Assembly (NCBI GenBank): GCA_024653485.1
Contig: JANLFY010000003.1
Coordinates: forward strand, 1 to 64,000
Source of the DNA: Bacillota bacterium
GTDB lineage: Bacteria; Bacillota; SHA-98; UBA4971
Length of the DNA stretch: 64,000 bases
Direction: 5' to 3'
In this document: positions 2,204 through 42,229 of the stretch, piece by piece
How positions within the stretch are numbered: position 1 is the first letter of the stretch
Layout of the letters: each line of letters opens with the position of its first letter
Translations under genes and position numbers: made by a program
Notes under the pieces: generated by a model
What the model was told of the DNA's origin: nothing
Database searches by the model: none
The model's input: only the letters and a program-made list of their open reading frames with translations

Positions 2204-2281
2204 TGGTCGGAGCGGCGAGACTTGAACTCGCGACCTCCTGAACCCCATTCAGGCGCGCTAGCCAAACTGCGCCACGCCCCG
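2204..2281 (-). tRNA. tRNA-Pro (anticodon GGG)
   Basis: The 78-nt sequence folds into a full cloverleaf on the minus strand. The acceptor stem is CGGGGCG/CGCTCCG (one G-U), and the D arm has a GCGC/GCGC stem. The anticodon stem is CCTGA/TCAGG with loop ATGGGGT, giving anticodon GGG. The variable loop has 5 nt, the T arm is GCGAG/CTCGC with loop TTCAAGT, and the CCA end is encoded in the gene. It reads the CCC/CCU proline codons. Confidence 0.97.
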
Positions 2282-2820: not shown

Positions 2821-4299
2821 CTATAATATGATGCAGATGAGCCCGCCACTGCCCTCATTGACGATCTTCTGAAGAGTCTCCTGAAGTTTCTGTTGCGCGT
2901 TCTCCGGCATTCTATAGAGCTTGCTCTCGATGCCCTCTTTCACCAGCTCGTGCAGGGACTTCCCCAGGAAGTCCGTGTTCCAAATGCGATCGGGGTCCTT
3001 CTCGAACTCCTCCGATAGTCGCCTGACCAGCTCCTCCCCTTGCCTTTCCGTCCCCACGTTCGTCGTGACCTCTGTCTCGATGTTCGCCCTGATCATATGG
3101 ATGGACGGGGCCGACGCCTTGAGCCTCACGCCGAACCGGCTGCCCTGCCTGATGAGCTCCGGCTCCTCGAACGTGAGCTCATCGAGGAGCGGCATCACTA
3201 TGCCGTACCCAAGCTCACGCGCGTCTCGCAAGCCATCGGCTATCTTGTCGTACTCCCTCTTTGCCGTGGATAGCTCCTTCATAAGCCGCAGGAGATGGTG
3301 ATCGCTCTCTACCTCGAGACCGCTCACTTCCTGGAGTACCTGGAAGAACAGGCTCCTCGGCGCGTCCAGGTCGATGACCACTGAGCCTGTGCCCAATTCC
3401 ATCTTCGTGAGATCCGCCGAGGATACGAACTCCTCTCCGGACAGCCTGTTCACGACGGTGTGGATATCGCGTATCCTCTTGACTTCCTTCACCGTCGTGA
3501 CGACGGCTTCCTGGAACCTCTGCCTTGCCCAGTGATCCTCTGCAAGCTCACCCAGCCAGACAGGCAGCCGCACGCTCACCTCGCGAACAGGGAACTCGTA
3601 GAGCACTTCGCGCAAGACACCCTTGACGTCCTCCACGTCCATACGCATGCAGTCGAGGGGGATGACCGGTACCTGGTACTTTTGGGACAAGTCGGTGGCA
3701 AGGTCCTTAGCCTCTCTCGACCACGGTGCCACAGAGTTGAGGATCGCGACGAAAGGCTTGCGCAGCTGGCGCAGCTCCGCTATGACCCGCTCTTCCGCCT
3801 GCGCGTAATTCTCCCTCGGGATCTCGGTGATCGAGCCGTCCGTCAGTACGACCAGGCCGATGGTCGAGTGGTCCGCTATCACCTTTCTCGTTCCGAACTC
3901 GGCCGCGTCCTCGAACGGGATTTCGTAGTCGAACCACGGCGTCACGACCATCCTCGGGCCGGCTTCGTCCTCGTACCCGAGCGCTCCCCTCACCGTGTAG
4001 CCGACACAATCAACGAGCCTGACCCGGACCTTGACGTTGTCTTCGAGCTCGACTTCCACGGCCTCGCTGGGCACGAACTTGGGCTCGGTGGTCATGATGG
4101 TCCTTCCGCCACCGCTCTGCGGGAGTTCGTCCACAGAACGCTGTTTGTCGTACATGTCGGAGATGTTCGGAAGTACCAGGAGGTCCATGAAACGTTTGAT
4201 GAACGTGGACTTGCCCGTTCTGACCGGCCCGACCACTCCGATGTAGATATCGCCGCCAGTTCGTGTGGCGATGTCCTGGAAGATGTCGAACGTCTCCAT
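2821..4299 (-). CDS. spoIVA: Stage IV sporulation protein A, spore coat basement-layer ATPase
   Basis: A 492-residue protein, the same length as B. subtilis SpoIVA, that polymerises around the forespore using ATP and anchors the coat. The N-terminus [17 protein letters not shown] and the Walker A GPVRTGKS (residues 24-31, Lys30) are present. The segments [24 protein letters not shown] and the hydrophobic C-terminal end are all conserved; the C-terminus binds SpoVM at the membrane. The start at 4299 has GGGAGG about 8 bp upstream, and a longer in-frame start at 4320 is rejected on homology. It is a single-gene unit with a terminator behind it and a possible sigma-E promoter in front. It shows the organism makes classical endospores. 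Confidence 0.97.
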
Positions 4300-4344
4300 A
4301 CCGGCTCCCTCCCCCGGCACCGGGTCGCACCCGGCTTTCAGAAT

Positions 4345-37958: not shown

Positions 37959-39959
37959 CTACTCCCTCGACAGCGTCGTCTGAGCTTCCCACTTGGCCAC
38001 CCCCACGTCGGGCGATGACGAGCCACGACGTTGCTCCTGCAAACTGCGATGCAAACCGCGCCAGGATCTAGAGGCGCTGTTGTCCGCCCCGCAGAGGTCT
38101 TGCGCCGCCCGAGCGATGTGCATCGGCGTGAGCCCGCATGCTGCAAGGAGCGCCTCGCGGGATCCGTGCTGGACGAAGGCGTCCGGAAGGGCCAAGTGGC
38201 TGACGGCCACCGCTTGTTCGCCGTAACCGCGCCTCGCGAGCGTCTCGAGGACAGCGCTCCCAAATCCTCCCAGCGGGGTTCCCTCCTCCACCACCACGAT
38301 CCTGCGGCAGCTCTCCGTAACCTGGATCAGGAGGTCCTCGTCAAGGGGTTTCGCGAACCTCGCGTTTACAACGGCGGCCCTCACGCCTTCTCGCTCGAGC
38401 AGCCGTGCTGCCTGCAGTGACGGATGGACCATGCTTCCTATGGCCACTATGGCCACGTCGTCTCCGTCCTGGACGAGCACCCCCTTGCCTCGTTCCACGG
38501 GTTGCGGCGGACGCAAGGCGGCCTGTCCGAACCCCTGGGACTTCGGGTACCGCACTGCCACGGGCCCGTCCATGGAAAGCGCGGCGCGGACCATGGCCAC
38601 CAATTCTTCCTCGTCGGCAGGTGCCATGAGCGTCATTCCGGGAACGCCGCGCAGGTAGGCAAGGTCGAATGCGCCGTGATGGGTTGGGCCGTCCTCTCCG
38701 ACGAGTCCCGCCCTGTCCACCGCGAAGACCACGTGAAGCCCCTGCAGGGCCACATCGTGAACGATTTGATCGTACGCTCTCTGGAGAAAAGTGGAATAGA
38801 TCGCCGCCACCGGAACGATGCCCAGGCTCGCTAGCCCCGCGGCGAGAGTCACGGCATGCTGCTCAGCTATACCTACATCGAAAAAGCGGTCCGGATGAAG
38901 TCGTGCGAACACATCCAGTCCCGTGCCGTCCGGCATTGCGGCGGTAATTGCCACTATCCTGTCGTCTTCGGCCGCAATGCTGGCGAGGGTTTCCCCGAAG
39001 ACCTGGGTGAAAGTCGGCGGCCCCGGTTGCTTCGGAAGCTCGCCCGAAGCCACATCGAACCTCCCCACTCCGTGAAACCTTCGAGGGTCCCGCTCGGCAG
39101 GCGCGTATCCGCGGCCCTTCTTCGTGACGACGTGCACTAGCACAGGACCGCCTTTGGCGCGCGCGTCCTCGATCGTGCGCATGACAGACGAGATGTCGTG
39201 GCCATCGAGCGGCCCAAGGTATGTGAAACCCAGGCTCTCGAAGAGCATCCCCGGCACGACGAGGTACTTGACGCTTCCCTTGAGCCTTCGCAGGCTCTCG
39301 GCAAGGTCCTTACCGATTCGGGGGACGCCCTCGAGGACGCGCTCTATGTCCTGACGTAGTTTAAGGAGGCGCGGCTCCGTTCGGATCCTGGCAAGGTAGG
39401 AGGCAAGCGCCCCCACATTCGGGGAAATGGACATCTCATTATCGTTCAGAACCACGATGAGGTCGGTCTTCACGTGGCCCGCGTGGTTGAGAGCCTCGAA
39501 CGCCATGCCCCCCGTGAGCGAGCCGTCGCCGATGACCGCGACCACTGTGAAGTCCTCGCCCTTCAGATCGCGTGCCATAGCCATGCCGAGCGCCGCGGAG
39601 ACCGAGGTGCTCGAATGGCCTGTGTTAAAGGCGTCGTGAGGGCTCTCGTCGCGTCTGGGAAAGCCGCTGAGCCCGCCGTACTGCCTGAGGCTGCCGAAGG
39701 CCGCGCGCCGCCCAGTTATGATCTTGTGTGCGTACGCTTGATGTCCGACATCCCAGATGATCTTGTCCCGCGGGCTGTCCAGCACGGCATGCAAGGCTAT
39801 CGCCAGATCCACCGCTCCGAGGCTGGATGCGAGGTGGCCCCCGGTTTTCGCCACCGTGTGGATGATTTCCTCGCGTATCTCCTGGGCGAGCCTGTCCAGT
39901 TCTCGCGGCGCAAGCCGCTTCAGATCGTGCGGGAGATCCAAGGAGTCAAGGAGTCTCAT
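37959..39959 (-). CDS. dxs: 1-deoxy-D-xylulose-5-phosphate synthase
   Basis: A 666-residue thiamine-diphosphate enzyme that starts the MEP isoprenoid pathway. The family motifs appear in order: IWDVGHQAYAHKI (about residue 69), GHSSTSVSAALGMA, GDGSLTGGMAFEALNHAG (thiamine and metal site), the central VTKKGRGYAPAE, and the transketolase-like DVGIAEQHAVTLAAGLA. The last 45 residues (after ARAAQDLCG) are a basic, low-complexity tail not usual for Dxs, overlapping the tlyA upstream region. ATG at 39959 starts MRLLDSLD; a longer frame exists upstream. It follows the OapA-like gene, overlapping its end by 14 bp. Confidence 0.95.
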   Translation of the reverse strand: MRLLDSLDLPHDLKRLAPRELDRLAQEIREEIIHTVAKTGGHLASSLGAVDLAIALHAVLDSPRDKIIWDVGHQAYAHKIITGRRAAFGSLRQYGGLSGFPRRDESPHDAFNTGHSSTSVSAALGMAMARDLKGEDFTVVAVIGDGSLTGGMAFEALNHAGHVKTDLIVVLNDNEMSISPNVGALASYLARIRTEPRLLKLRQDIERVLEGVPRIGKDLAESLRRLKGSVKYLVVPGMLFESLGFTYLGPLDGHDISSVMRTIEDARAKGGPVLVHVVTKKGRGYAPAERDPRRFHGVGRFDVASGELPKQPGPPTFTQVFGETLASIAAEDDRIVAITAAMPDGTGLDVFARLHPDRFFDVGIAEQHAVTLAAGLASLGIVPVAAIYSTFLQRAYDQIVHDVALQGLHVVFAVDRAGLVGEDGPTHHGAFDLAYLRGVPGMTLMAPADEEELVAMVRAALSMDGPVAVRYPKSQGFGQAALRPPQPVERGKGVLVQDGDDVAIVAIGSMVHPSLQAARLLEREGVRAAVVNARFAKPLDEDLLIQVTESCRRIVVVEEGTPLGGFGSAVLETLARRGYGEQAVAVSHLALPDAFVQHGSREALLAACGLTPMHIARAAQDLCGADNSASRSWRGLHRSLQEQRRGSSSPDVGVAKWEAQTTLSRE

Positions 39960-40608
39960 CACTCTCGTTCTCTCTCCATTTCCGGTGGCGATCTTGTCGC
40001 TCCCGGTTCCTCGCCGACAGCCGCGCGCGCCTGTGGTGACCGGTCTTTCCACCACGAAGGAACGTAAGTCCCGTGACGGACTCAAGGCCGGCCATCACCT
40101 TTCCGGCGGCGAGCACGATCATCTCGGCGTCGCTCACGGCGATGTTCTTGCTCCAGGCCTTTCCTCCGACCGTGAGGCCCGCGATCACTCCGATGACGAC
40201 CGTGCTGATCAAGGTCTCGCTGATGCCGGGTCGCGCAAGCGCCGCAAGGCGCATCGCGATGCTCACCCCGACCGCTCCGCTCACCGTTCCCGCCATGTCG
40301 CCGACCACGTCGTTGCAGAAGTTCGCCACGCGGTCGGCGGACCGAACGATCCTTATGGCCTGGTGGGCGCCTCGCACCTTCTTCGCCGCCATGGCGTGAA
40401 AGGGTTGTTTCTTGGCTGCCGTTGAAGCCGTGCCGATGACGTCGAACACGACCCCTATCAGGACTATCCCTAACAGAACAAAAAGTCCAAGAACCAGCCC
40501 GACCTGACCCAGCAGTATCTTGGACACGAAATTCACCAATATGGCTAGGAAAAACGTTGTAAAGCCTACGGACACAGCTCTTGCGAGACGTTGGTCCAAG
40601 AACCGCAT
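39946..40608 (-). CDS. oapA: OLE-associated membrane protein, OapA-like
   Basis: A 220-residue membrane protein encoded immediately after the OLE-like RNA and before dxs. About four hydrophobic segments are seen: residues 11-28, 32-50, around 120 and 130-150. Between them is a conserved loop FDVIGTASTAA..KQPFHAMAAKKV and then RSADRVANFCNDVVGDMAG, followed by a strongly basic tail (RRARLSARNRERQDRHRKWR) that could contact RNA. The composition and place match OapA of Bacillus halodurans (BH2780), known to bind OLE RNA and carry it to the membrane. The ATG at 40608 is chosen; a GTG at 40641 also exists. The assignment is from context and recalled sequence, not a search. Confidence 0.8.
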   Translation of the reverse strand: MRFLDQRLARAVSVGFTTFFLAILVNFVSKILLGQVGLVLGLFVLLGIVLIGVVFDVIGTASTAAKKQPFHAMAAKKVRGAHQAIRIVRSADRVANFCNDVVGDMAGTVSGAVGVSIAMRLAALARPGISETLISTVVIGVIAGLTVGGKAWSKNIAVSDAEMIVLAAGKVMAGLESVTGLTFLRGGKTGHHRRARLSARNRERQDRHRKWRENESDETP

Positions 40609-40644
40609 CACCTCGATGATGCTCCAGGCAGGTGGTAACACTCC

Positions 40645-41250
40645 GGGTAAATATTGTGGCTTGAGGTCCGGCTGGTTTTCCCTGCGGTGCTCCCTCGCGT
40701 TGCCGCTCGGGCGGTTTCCCGTTTACGACCGCCTCCCGCGGTTGCCCCTGCGGGTGGCCGGATTACCACTTAGCGCACACTGCAATCCCCGGAATGCCCC
40801 ACTTGTTCGGACAGTCTAGGAGTTTTCCTCGGCAGCCCCCACCATCTTCTAGCCTCTTTTGCAGCTAGGGTTTCATGCGGCAACGAGCCGATCCCCTGGC
40901 CAGGAGATACGGACCCTGGTACCCGCAATCCCGCTCCCGCCACTCAAGGCAGGCTACGCTGCACCAAGCACGGTGTACCTCGCACCCTGCCCGCACCTAG
41001 GTGCAGGTTTACCCCCCGGCCGTGGCAGCCGGTCGGTGCCGTCTCGCCACGGGGTCGGGTCTCCGCGAAGAGAGGGTCCACGCCCGCATGCCGTTGCAGA
41101 TCGCCCTCTCCTCTTAACCCCCAGCACCAACCCCCGACTGGGCGTCGGCGGCCAGCACCAGGGACTTCATCGATGTGCCCTTGACGGATTTTTAGGCCCG
41201 TCTTCAAAGATGGTGGTGCTGACTAGAATACTGCACCACCTGCCCTGGCA
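40645..41250 (-). ncRNA. ole: OLE RNA-like large structured noncoding RNA
   Basis: This approximately 606-nt stretch holds no credible gene. It sits between ispA and a membrane protein followed by dxs, exactly where OLE (ornate, large, extremophilic) RNA is found in extremophilic Bacillota. It has its own strong promoter (41257-41285). Visible hairpins include GGTGGTGC/GCACCACC (41212-41219 with 41233-41240), GACGG/CCGTC (41183-41187 with 41198-41202) and GGCGGT/ACCGCC (40710-40715 with 40728-40733), plus a CCCGC/GCGGG stem just upstream. OLE RNAs are about 610 nt and act at the membrane with OapA. The 3' end is estimated as just before the OapA-like gene. The call is from context, length and promoter; I could not test the covariance model. 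Confidence 0.83.
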
Positions 41251-41256
41251 CGAACG

Positions 41257-41285
41257 ATTATAACACACGTGTCCCCTGCCTTCAA
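41257..41285 (-). promoter_or_regulatory. Strong sigma-A promoter of the OLE-like RNA
   Basis: On the minus strand there is TTGAAG (41280-41285), a 17-bp spacer and a perfect TATAAT (41257-41262). Transcription would begin near 41250. The -35 element overlaps the stop codon of ispA, so this RNA has its own promoter inside the operon and may also be read through from ispA. Confidence 0.85.
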
Positions 41286-42229
41286 GCAACGGTGCCGGCA
41301 AGCACCTTCGCGAGCGCGCGAAGCTCCGAGGCTTCGGCCTCGCCGAAGAGCGCGAGCGCGTCGTCTGCGGCCTCGACAAGACGGGCGCCGTACTCTCGCG
41401 CGCCCGCCGTCCCCATGACTCGGGGGAAGCTCTCGGAATCGTCTTGGGACGCGTCCGCGACGTCATCGAATACTTGGAAAGCCCTCCCAAAGAGCTCGCC
41501 ATAGCGCGTCAAGGCGTCGAGTTCGTCCTCTCGCGCTCCCGCCGCGATTGCGCCGCAGCGCACGGCCGCCCTTATCAGGGCTCCCGTCTTGAGGTCGGCG
41601 AGGCGTTCCACGTCGGAGAGGCTCGCGCCGCGGCAATCGCGGCGGTCGTGAGGCGGGGCGGCGGGAACGGCAGCCTTCGCTCGTCCGGCAAGAGACATGT
41701 CGACGGCCTGGCCACCGGCCATTCCCAGGCTTCCGGAGGCGCGGGCGATCTCCCACACGACGCTCGCGGTCGCCTTCAAGCCCATCAAGCGGCGGGCCTC
41801 CCGCTCCGACAGGACCTGAAAACTCAAGGAGAGGAGGGCGTCGCCCGCGAGGATGGCGACCGCCTCCCCGAAAGCCCTGTGAACCGTGGGACGCCCGCGC
41901 CTAAAGTCGTCGTCGTCCATTGCGGGAAGGTCGTCGTGGATGAGGGAGTACGAATGGACTAGCTCAACAGAGACCGCGCACGGCATCGCCCGACGGATCA
42001 TCCGCTCGTCCCCGTCCGCGTCGCGCCCCCCGCCTTCGGACTCACGGCGCCTTCGCCCAACCGCAAGGGCCGAGCCGAGCACCAGGAGGGGCCGCACGCG
42101 CTTTCCTCCTGGAAACACCGCATACCGCATGGCTTTGTGAAGATCTGCAGGAAAGGCTGTCTCCGGGGGCAGAGCCCGGTTCAGAGCCTCGTCCACCAGG
42201 CGTTTCATGGCGCGCGCCCATTCGTTCAT
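41282..42229 (-). CDS. ispA: Farnesyl/geranylgeranyl diphosphate synthase
   Basis: A 315-residue short-chain prenyl synthase. It has the first Asp-rich motif LIHDDLPAMDDDDFRRG, the second motif VFDDVADASQDDS and an active-site GKRVRPLLVLG, so the head-to-tail condensation residues are complete. Bulky residues before the first motif fit C15 product length, but product length cannot be fixed by sequence alone. A Gly/Asp-rich insertion (about residue 65) is unusual. The ATG overlaps the xseB stop (ATGA). It makes precursors for undecaprenol and quinones, and shares the locus with dxs. Confidence 0.95.
   Translation of the reverse strand: MNEWARAMKRLVDEALNRALPPETAFPADLHKAMRYAVFPGGKRVRPLLVLGSALAVGRRRRESEGGGRDADGDERMIRRAMPCAVSVELVHSYSLIHDDLPAMDDDDFRRGRPTVHRAFGEAVAILAGDALLSLSFQVLSEREARRLMGLKATASVVWEIARASGSLGMAGGQAVDMSLAGRAKAAVPAAPPHDRRDCRGASLSDVERLADLKTGALIRAAVRCGAIAAGAREDELDALTRYGELFGRAFQVFDDVADASQDDSESFPRVMGTAGAREYGARLVEAADDALALFGEAEASELRALAKVLAGTVA

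Follow-up and report, generated by a model that had tools for sequence, protein, structure and literature searches.

The stretch of DNA analyzed here (64,000 nt; hereafter, the window) contains a long interval between ispA and oapA that a preliminary description, made from the letters alone, had assigned to an OLE-type noncoding RNA on the minus strand, and the question raised by this locus is whether the interval indeed encodes an OLE RNA and, if so, of what kind. OLE is a structured bacterial RNA of about 600 nt that acts at the membrane together with protein partners and contributes to stress and magnesium tolerance. To our knowledge, it is among the largest structured bacterial RNAs whose biochemical function is unknown. 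OLE is widespread in Bacillota, with 2,822 published matches (PMC11332333).

A search with cmscan placed the interval (Table 1) in the Rfam OLE family, RF01071, with the match extending over model positions 1 to 616 of 616 at 445.8 bits (E value of about 1e-128), which is about nine times the family's gathering cutoff of 50 bits and the opposite of the sub-threshold covariance-model score that the preliminary description had named as a refuting outcome. The OLE model found a single copy in the window's own 3.0-Mb genome and no match in any of 14 control genomes. The interval had been described as free of genes, and on the minus strand the gap between ispA and oapA indeed holds no plausible gene, since the open reading frames (ORFs) that cross it are spurious ones only (at most 134 aa on the plus strand and 111 aa on the minus strand). 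The interval also folds stably, with a folding energy of −310 kcal/mol compared to a mean of −276 ± 7 kcal/mol for 20 dinucleotide shuffles (z = −5.0). We regard it as virtually certain that the stretch is an OLE RNA, and it is a new but ordinary and typical member of a known RNA family.

Table 1. Features of the OLE locus (window positions), listed in the order of transcription
Feature	Position	Strand	Basis
ispA, farnesyl-diphosphate-synthase-type polyprenyl synthetase	41282-42229	−	PF00348, E = 2.7e-44; best NCBIfam match FPPsyn, below cutoff
Sigma-A-type OLE promoter, extended −10 (TGT)	41257-41285	−	Consensus match; conservation in the class
OLE RNA gene	40616-41255	−	End-to-end RF01071 match and covariation in 48 sequences
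Predicted OLE transcript	From about 41250 to about 40616-40627	−	Promoter position; P1 3′ arm
P1 closing helix, 5′ arm	41235-41244	−	Pairs with 40627-40636
Conserved 5′ segment GUGGUGCAGUAUUCUAGUCAG, starting within the P1 5′ arm	41219-41239	−	Core TAT.CTAGT identical in all 48 sequences
Hairpin GACGGGCCUAAAAAUCCGUC with A-rich loop	41183-41202	−	98.6% of helix cells paired
J4a/5 CACAUCGAUGAAG, 5′ half of the OapC k-turn region	41165-41177	−	CGAUGAAG nearly invariant; assigned by position
P5.1 end, loop GCCCA (L5.1)	41136-41146	−	Covaries with L6.1
P6.1 end, loop CAACGGCAU (L6.1)	41086-41099	−	Covaries with L5.1
J6/7 CGCGGAGACCC	41057-41067	−	Conserved
P9 terminal hairpin, self-complementary UGGCCA loop (L9.3 kissing loop)	40893-40906	−	Kissing role from PMC12286853
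P13 hairpin end CGAGCGGCAACGCG	40696-40709	−	Conserved; with P12.2 (40740-40748), predicted OapB site
P1 closing helix, 3′ arm, outside the coordinates first proposed	40627-40636	−	Pairs with 41235-41244
oapA, 220 aa from ATG (231 aa via GTG at 40641)	39946-40608	−	Profile match
dxs, 1-deoxy-D-xylulose-5-phosphate synthase	37959-39959	−	TIGR00204, 809.6 bits (cutoff, 466)

The RNA had also been credited with a consensus promoter of its own, and such a site is found where the RNA is predicted to begin: TTGAAG-N17-TATAAT, which has a TG upstream of the −10 element, matches the consensus at 10 of 12 positions. It is the sole such site within 3 kb, where 0.2 would be expected, and a score this good was obtained in 0.2% of simulated cases. 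The site occupies the same place throughout the host's class, with TGnTATAAT present in 17/17 genomes at an equal distance, 1 to 2 nt before the start of the OLE model, and TTGAnn located 17 nt upstream of TATAAT in 16 of the 17. The OLE of Halalkalibacterium halodurans is embedded in an operon and likewise has its own promoter (PMC9723947). Judging from the promoter position, transcription of the window copy would start near position 41250, about 7 nt past TATAAT, which fits the upper end of the boundaries originally given (40645 to 41250). The lower end, in contrast, leaves out the 3′ arm of P1, the closing helix; because this arm lies beyond 40645, the 3′ end of the RNA should reach about 40616 to 40627.

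For the secondary structure, 48 OLE genes were aligned with MAFFT, the Rfam structure was transferred via the window sequence, and pairs were then counted. Across these sequences, 85.3% of the cells at Rfam pairs were paired, versus 72.5% in shuffles and 41 to 46% in slid controls. Changes on both sides of a pair occurred in 1161 cells (421 ± 21 in shuffles and 253 to 411 in slid controls), and the covariation score was 0.409, compared to 0.187 in shuffles. Distal P9 aligned poorly and makes up a small share of the covariation signal. When read on the Rfam alignment, the window copy has 137 of its 158 Rfam pairs standard and 21 nonstandard. The closing helix is unpaired in the Rfam structure line, yet it covaries strongly, with 92.9% of cells paired and 84 double-sided changes over the 48 sequences versus 21 ± 5 in shuffles; on the basis of position, it is taken to be the published P1.

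Several conserved segments can be assigned to published contacts. The hairpin with the A-rich loop is likely P4/L4 and would then provide an A-A dimer contact, a role known from PMC12265935 and PMC12286853. The J4a/5 region has been described as part of the OapC k-turn (PMC9723947), and J6/7, assigned by position, is likely the partner strand of k-turn 1b, the role of which comes from PMC12286853. The OapB site at P12.2/P13 was described in PMC9723947 and is placed in the window by position.

Cryo-EM work has described kissing loops L5.1/L6.1 (PMC12286853, PMC12265935), and these covary in our alignment: GGGC occurs in L6.1 of 6/6 sequences in which L5.1 reads GCCCC versus 1/41 sequences with GCCCA (P value = 6.5e-7, by a statistic that ignores kinship). 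The window copy keeps the core GCC/GGC pairing, and its outermost pair is A-C, as in G004 and G005, compared to A-U in the other members of the genus. Other dimer-contact features are present in the window copy, namely, the palindrome UGGCCA in L9.3 and an A-rich L4. The distal P9 arm is absent, together with L9.3, in G013, G014, and G015 of the window's class (loci L039, L040, and L041) and in G025 (L031). The rest of OLE is intact in these genomes, which represent natural deletions of one dimer bridge.

The genomic context agrees with the one first proposed, with ispA upstream, an OapA homologue downstream, and dxs after it, so that the minus-strand order is ispA, ole, oapA, dxs; the last 14 nt of the oapA coding region are shared with the start of dxs. 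Neither Pfam nor NCBIfam has a model named for OapA, and the window protein matches DUF3397 alone in these collections, below the cutoff. An OapA profile based on 41 neighbors retrieves the window protein in its own genome with an E value of 3.6e-77. Residues D100 and D104, whose mutation defines the PM1 OapA mutant (PMC9723947), are invariant in the 41 OapA proteins, including that of the window. Weak matches to the CNNM domain were obtained for 28 of the 41 family members, the window OapA not being among them; the OapA profile retrieved nothing credible from the PDB, and an AlphaFold model from seven sequences was of low confidence (mean pLDDT of 49.8) and too poor for a structure search. 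The C-terminal tail of OapA (window positions 39946 to 40053, minus strand; about 35 residues) is strongly basic and hydrophilic, and this tail is common to members of the genus and is absent in a more distant OapA. A match to the snoRNA sR40 inside oapA (21.3 bits; cutoff, 50) was rejected as chance.

The other published partners also have counterparts in the host genome. An OapB homologue is encoded between map and infA, its best PDB match being OLE-associated protein B (7k9b; E value of 1.2e-9). An L7Ae-family protein is encoded between rpoC and rpsL, and its family match and position would fit OapC/YbxF. The ribosomal protein bS21 is encoded as well. The place of the OapB gene presumably is the same as that of Bacillus ybzG, which we take to lie likewise between map and infA.

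Very probably, the best explanation for these observations is a full-length OLE gene, the likely mechanism being that of the published dimeric, OapA-anchored membrane RNP. Membership in the family comes here from the sequence, and the role is drawn from earlier studies of OLE in Halalkalibacterium halodurans and clostridia. OLE would be transcribed from its own promoter, fold, and dimerize through L4, L5.1/L6.1, and L9.3, after which OapA would anchor it at the membrane, OapB would bind P12.2/P13, and OapC and bS21 would bind the P5-P6 k-turn region. Such an RNP would aid adaptation to stress and Mg2+, as MpfA-type CNNM transporters do in OLE-less bacteria, and it seems reasonably plausible that this membrane-RNP and Mg2+/stress role applies in the present organism. 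One contact may differ. In H. halodurans, a CCUCCU in P6 that lies within the bS21 site mimics the 16S anti-Shine-Dalgarno (ASD) sequence (PMC12054373). The exact CCUCCU is absent from P6 of the window copy and is found at that place in only 1/48 aligned OLE sequences. It therefore characterizes H. halodurans and a small number of others and is not a general or defining feature of OLE, and bS21 binding in this class may differ from that in H. halodurans because P6 lacks the exact mimic.

Instead of being a trans-acting RNA, the structured stretch might mainly be a 5′ leader governing oapA and dxs expression in cis, e.g., via P1 near the oapA ribosome-binding site. OLE does continue into oapA with no recognizable terminator between the two in the window. 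About 18 nt separate the end of the P1 3′ arm from the oapA ATG, and within the genus an extension of P1 can pair with part of a GGAG motif ahead of oapA. However, in G018 (L043) and G027 (L046), OLE is followed by a terminator-like hairpin and a T run in place of the usual oapA tandem, with oapA found on another contig, which makes an exclusively cis-acting leader unlikely. The OLE of H. halodurans, moreover, is an abundant free RNA of ~630 nt in an RNP (PMC9723947), and we consider the leader explanation very improbable. The possible P1 extension comprises three pairs (window positions 40616 to 40641), and it could possibly link OLE folding to oapA translation. As for G018 and G027, the idea that they carry an OLE without OapA was rejected, given that oapA was located on other contigs (G018:C5:83346-83924 and G027:C73:14379-14945).

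Still less credible is the view that this genome holds a nonfunctional OLE remnant. A few departures from the consensus could be read in that way (the A-C pair of the kissing loops and the lack of an exact ASD mimic), but the match is full length, the promoter, oapA, and partner genes are intact, the conserved segments are unchanged, and the gene is retained in 17/17 genomes of the class. The chance that another noncoding RNA or a coding region merely resembles OLE is negligible: nothing was found in favor of it, and the E value, the lack of any match in the 14 control genomes, and the purely spurious ORFs speak against a look-alike, which is refuted by the full-length RF01071 match together with the covariation.

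The window copy is like the RF01071 OLE RNAs of H. halodurans and Clostridium acetobutylicum in its full length, helices, conserved segments, and own promoter, as well as in the tandem with oapA between isoprenoid genes and the presence of OapA, OapB, OapC, and bS21 genes in the genome. Unlike RF01071 representatives, it has a GC content of 63%, an A-C instead of an A-U in the L5.1/L6.1 contact, and a host in which no MpfA-type CNNM protein was detected; unlike the Rfam OLE model, it carries a 19-nt insert at a hairpin loop (window positions 40973 to 40991). OLE variants 1 (TANB77) and 2 (RF39) of Fernando and Breaker (2024) have a short or missing P7-P9 and lack the OapB loop. The window copy keeps P7, P8, P9, and the P13 OapB site and therefore is of the full-length type rather than variant 1 or 2, whereas the shortened P9 of variant 1 resembles that of the class relatives G013 to G015. 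MpfA/CorC-type CNNM Mg2+ transporters, for which a functional replacement with OLE has been proposed (PMC11332333), are all-protein systems with CBS domains, and relatives of OapA give weak matches to the CNNM domain.

Of 61 genomes, 51 contained both OLE and OapA, and the remaining 10 contained neither. This strict co-occurrence, which is not independent of phylogeny, reproduces the published correlation (PMC11332333). Every genome searched from the host's uncultured, GC-rich class (17/17) contains OLE, and likewise OapA. A full CNNM protein was found in 9/10 OLE-lacking genomes versus 13/51 OLE-bearing genomes (Fisher P value = 2e-4, by a statistic that ignores kinship), an anticorrelation that likewise reproduces the published pattern (PMC11332333) and, again, depends in part on phylogeny. 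The window's own genome yielded no CNNM match and no MpfA-type transporter, and the CNNM matches of the 16 further class genomes are all weak and all at oapA itself, those of G008 and G009 barely reaching or exceeding the family cutoff.

These results extend the documented OLE set to a GC-rich uncultured class, with the full set of partner genes found in the one genome so checked. Their main addition is an apparently fixed OLE in one such class, some members of which lack the P9 kissing arm; this loss and the missing ASD mimic are natural variation relevant to the question of which published contacts hold generally. We tentatively speculate, while leaning somewhat against it, that OLE-OapA is fixed in the class and wholly replaces MpfA-type Mg2+ exporters, while G013 to G015 do without the P9 arm and the kissing loop on it. 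If this is true, the class offers a natural test of which OLE parts are essential.

Two further observations concern single loci. In G029 (L045, positions 3343 to 4330), the OLE copy contains an N gap and duplicated ends, and oapA is represented by two short frames with stops; this genome encodes a full CNNM protein, and the damaged OLE/oapA may be an assembly artifact or a case of decay. The window also carries a tRNA-Pro gene with the anticodon GGG (positions 2204 to 2281, minus strand).
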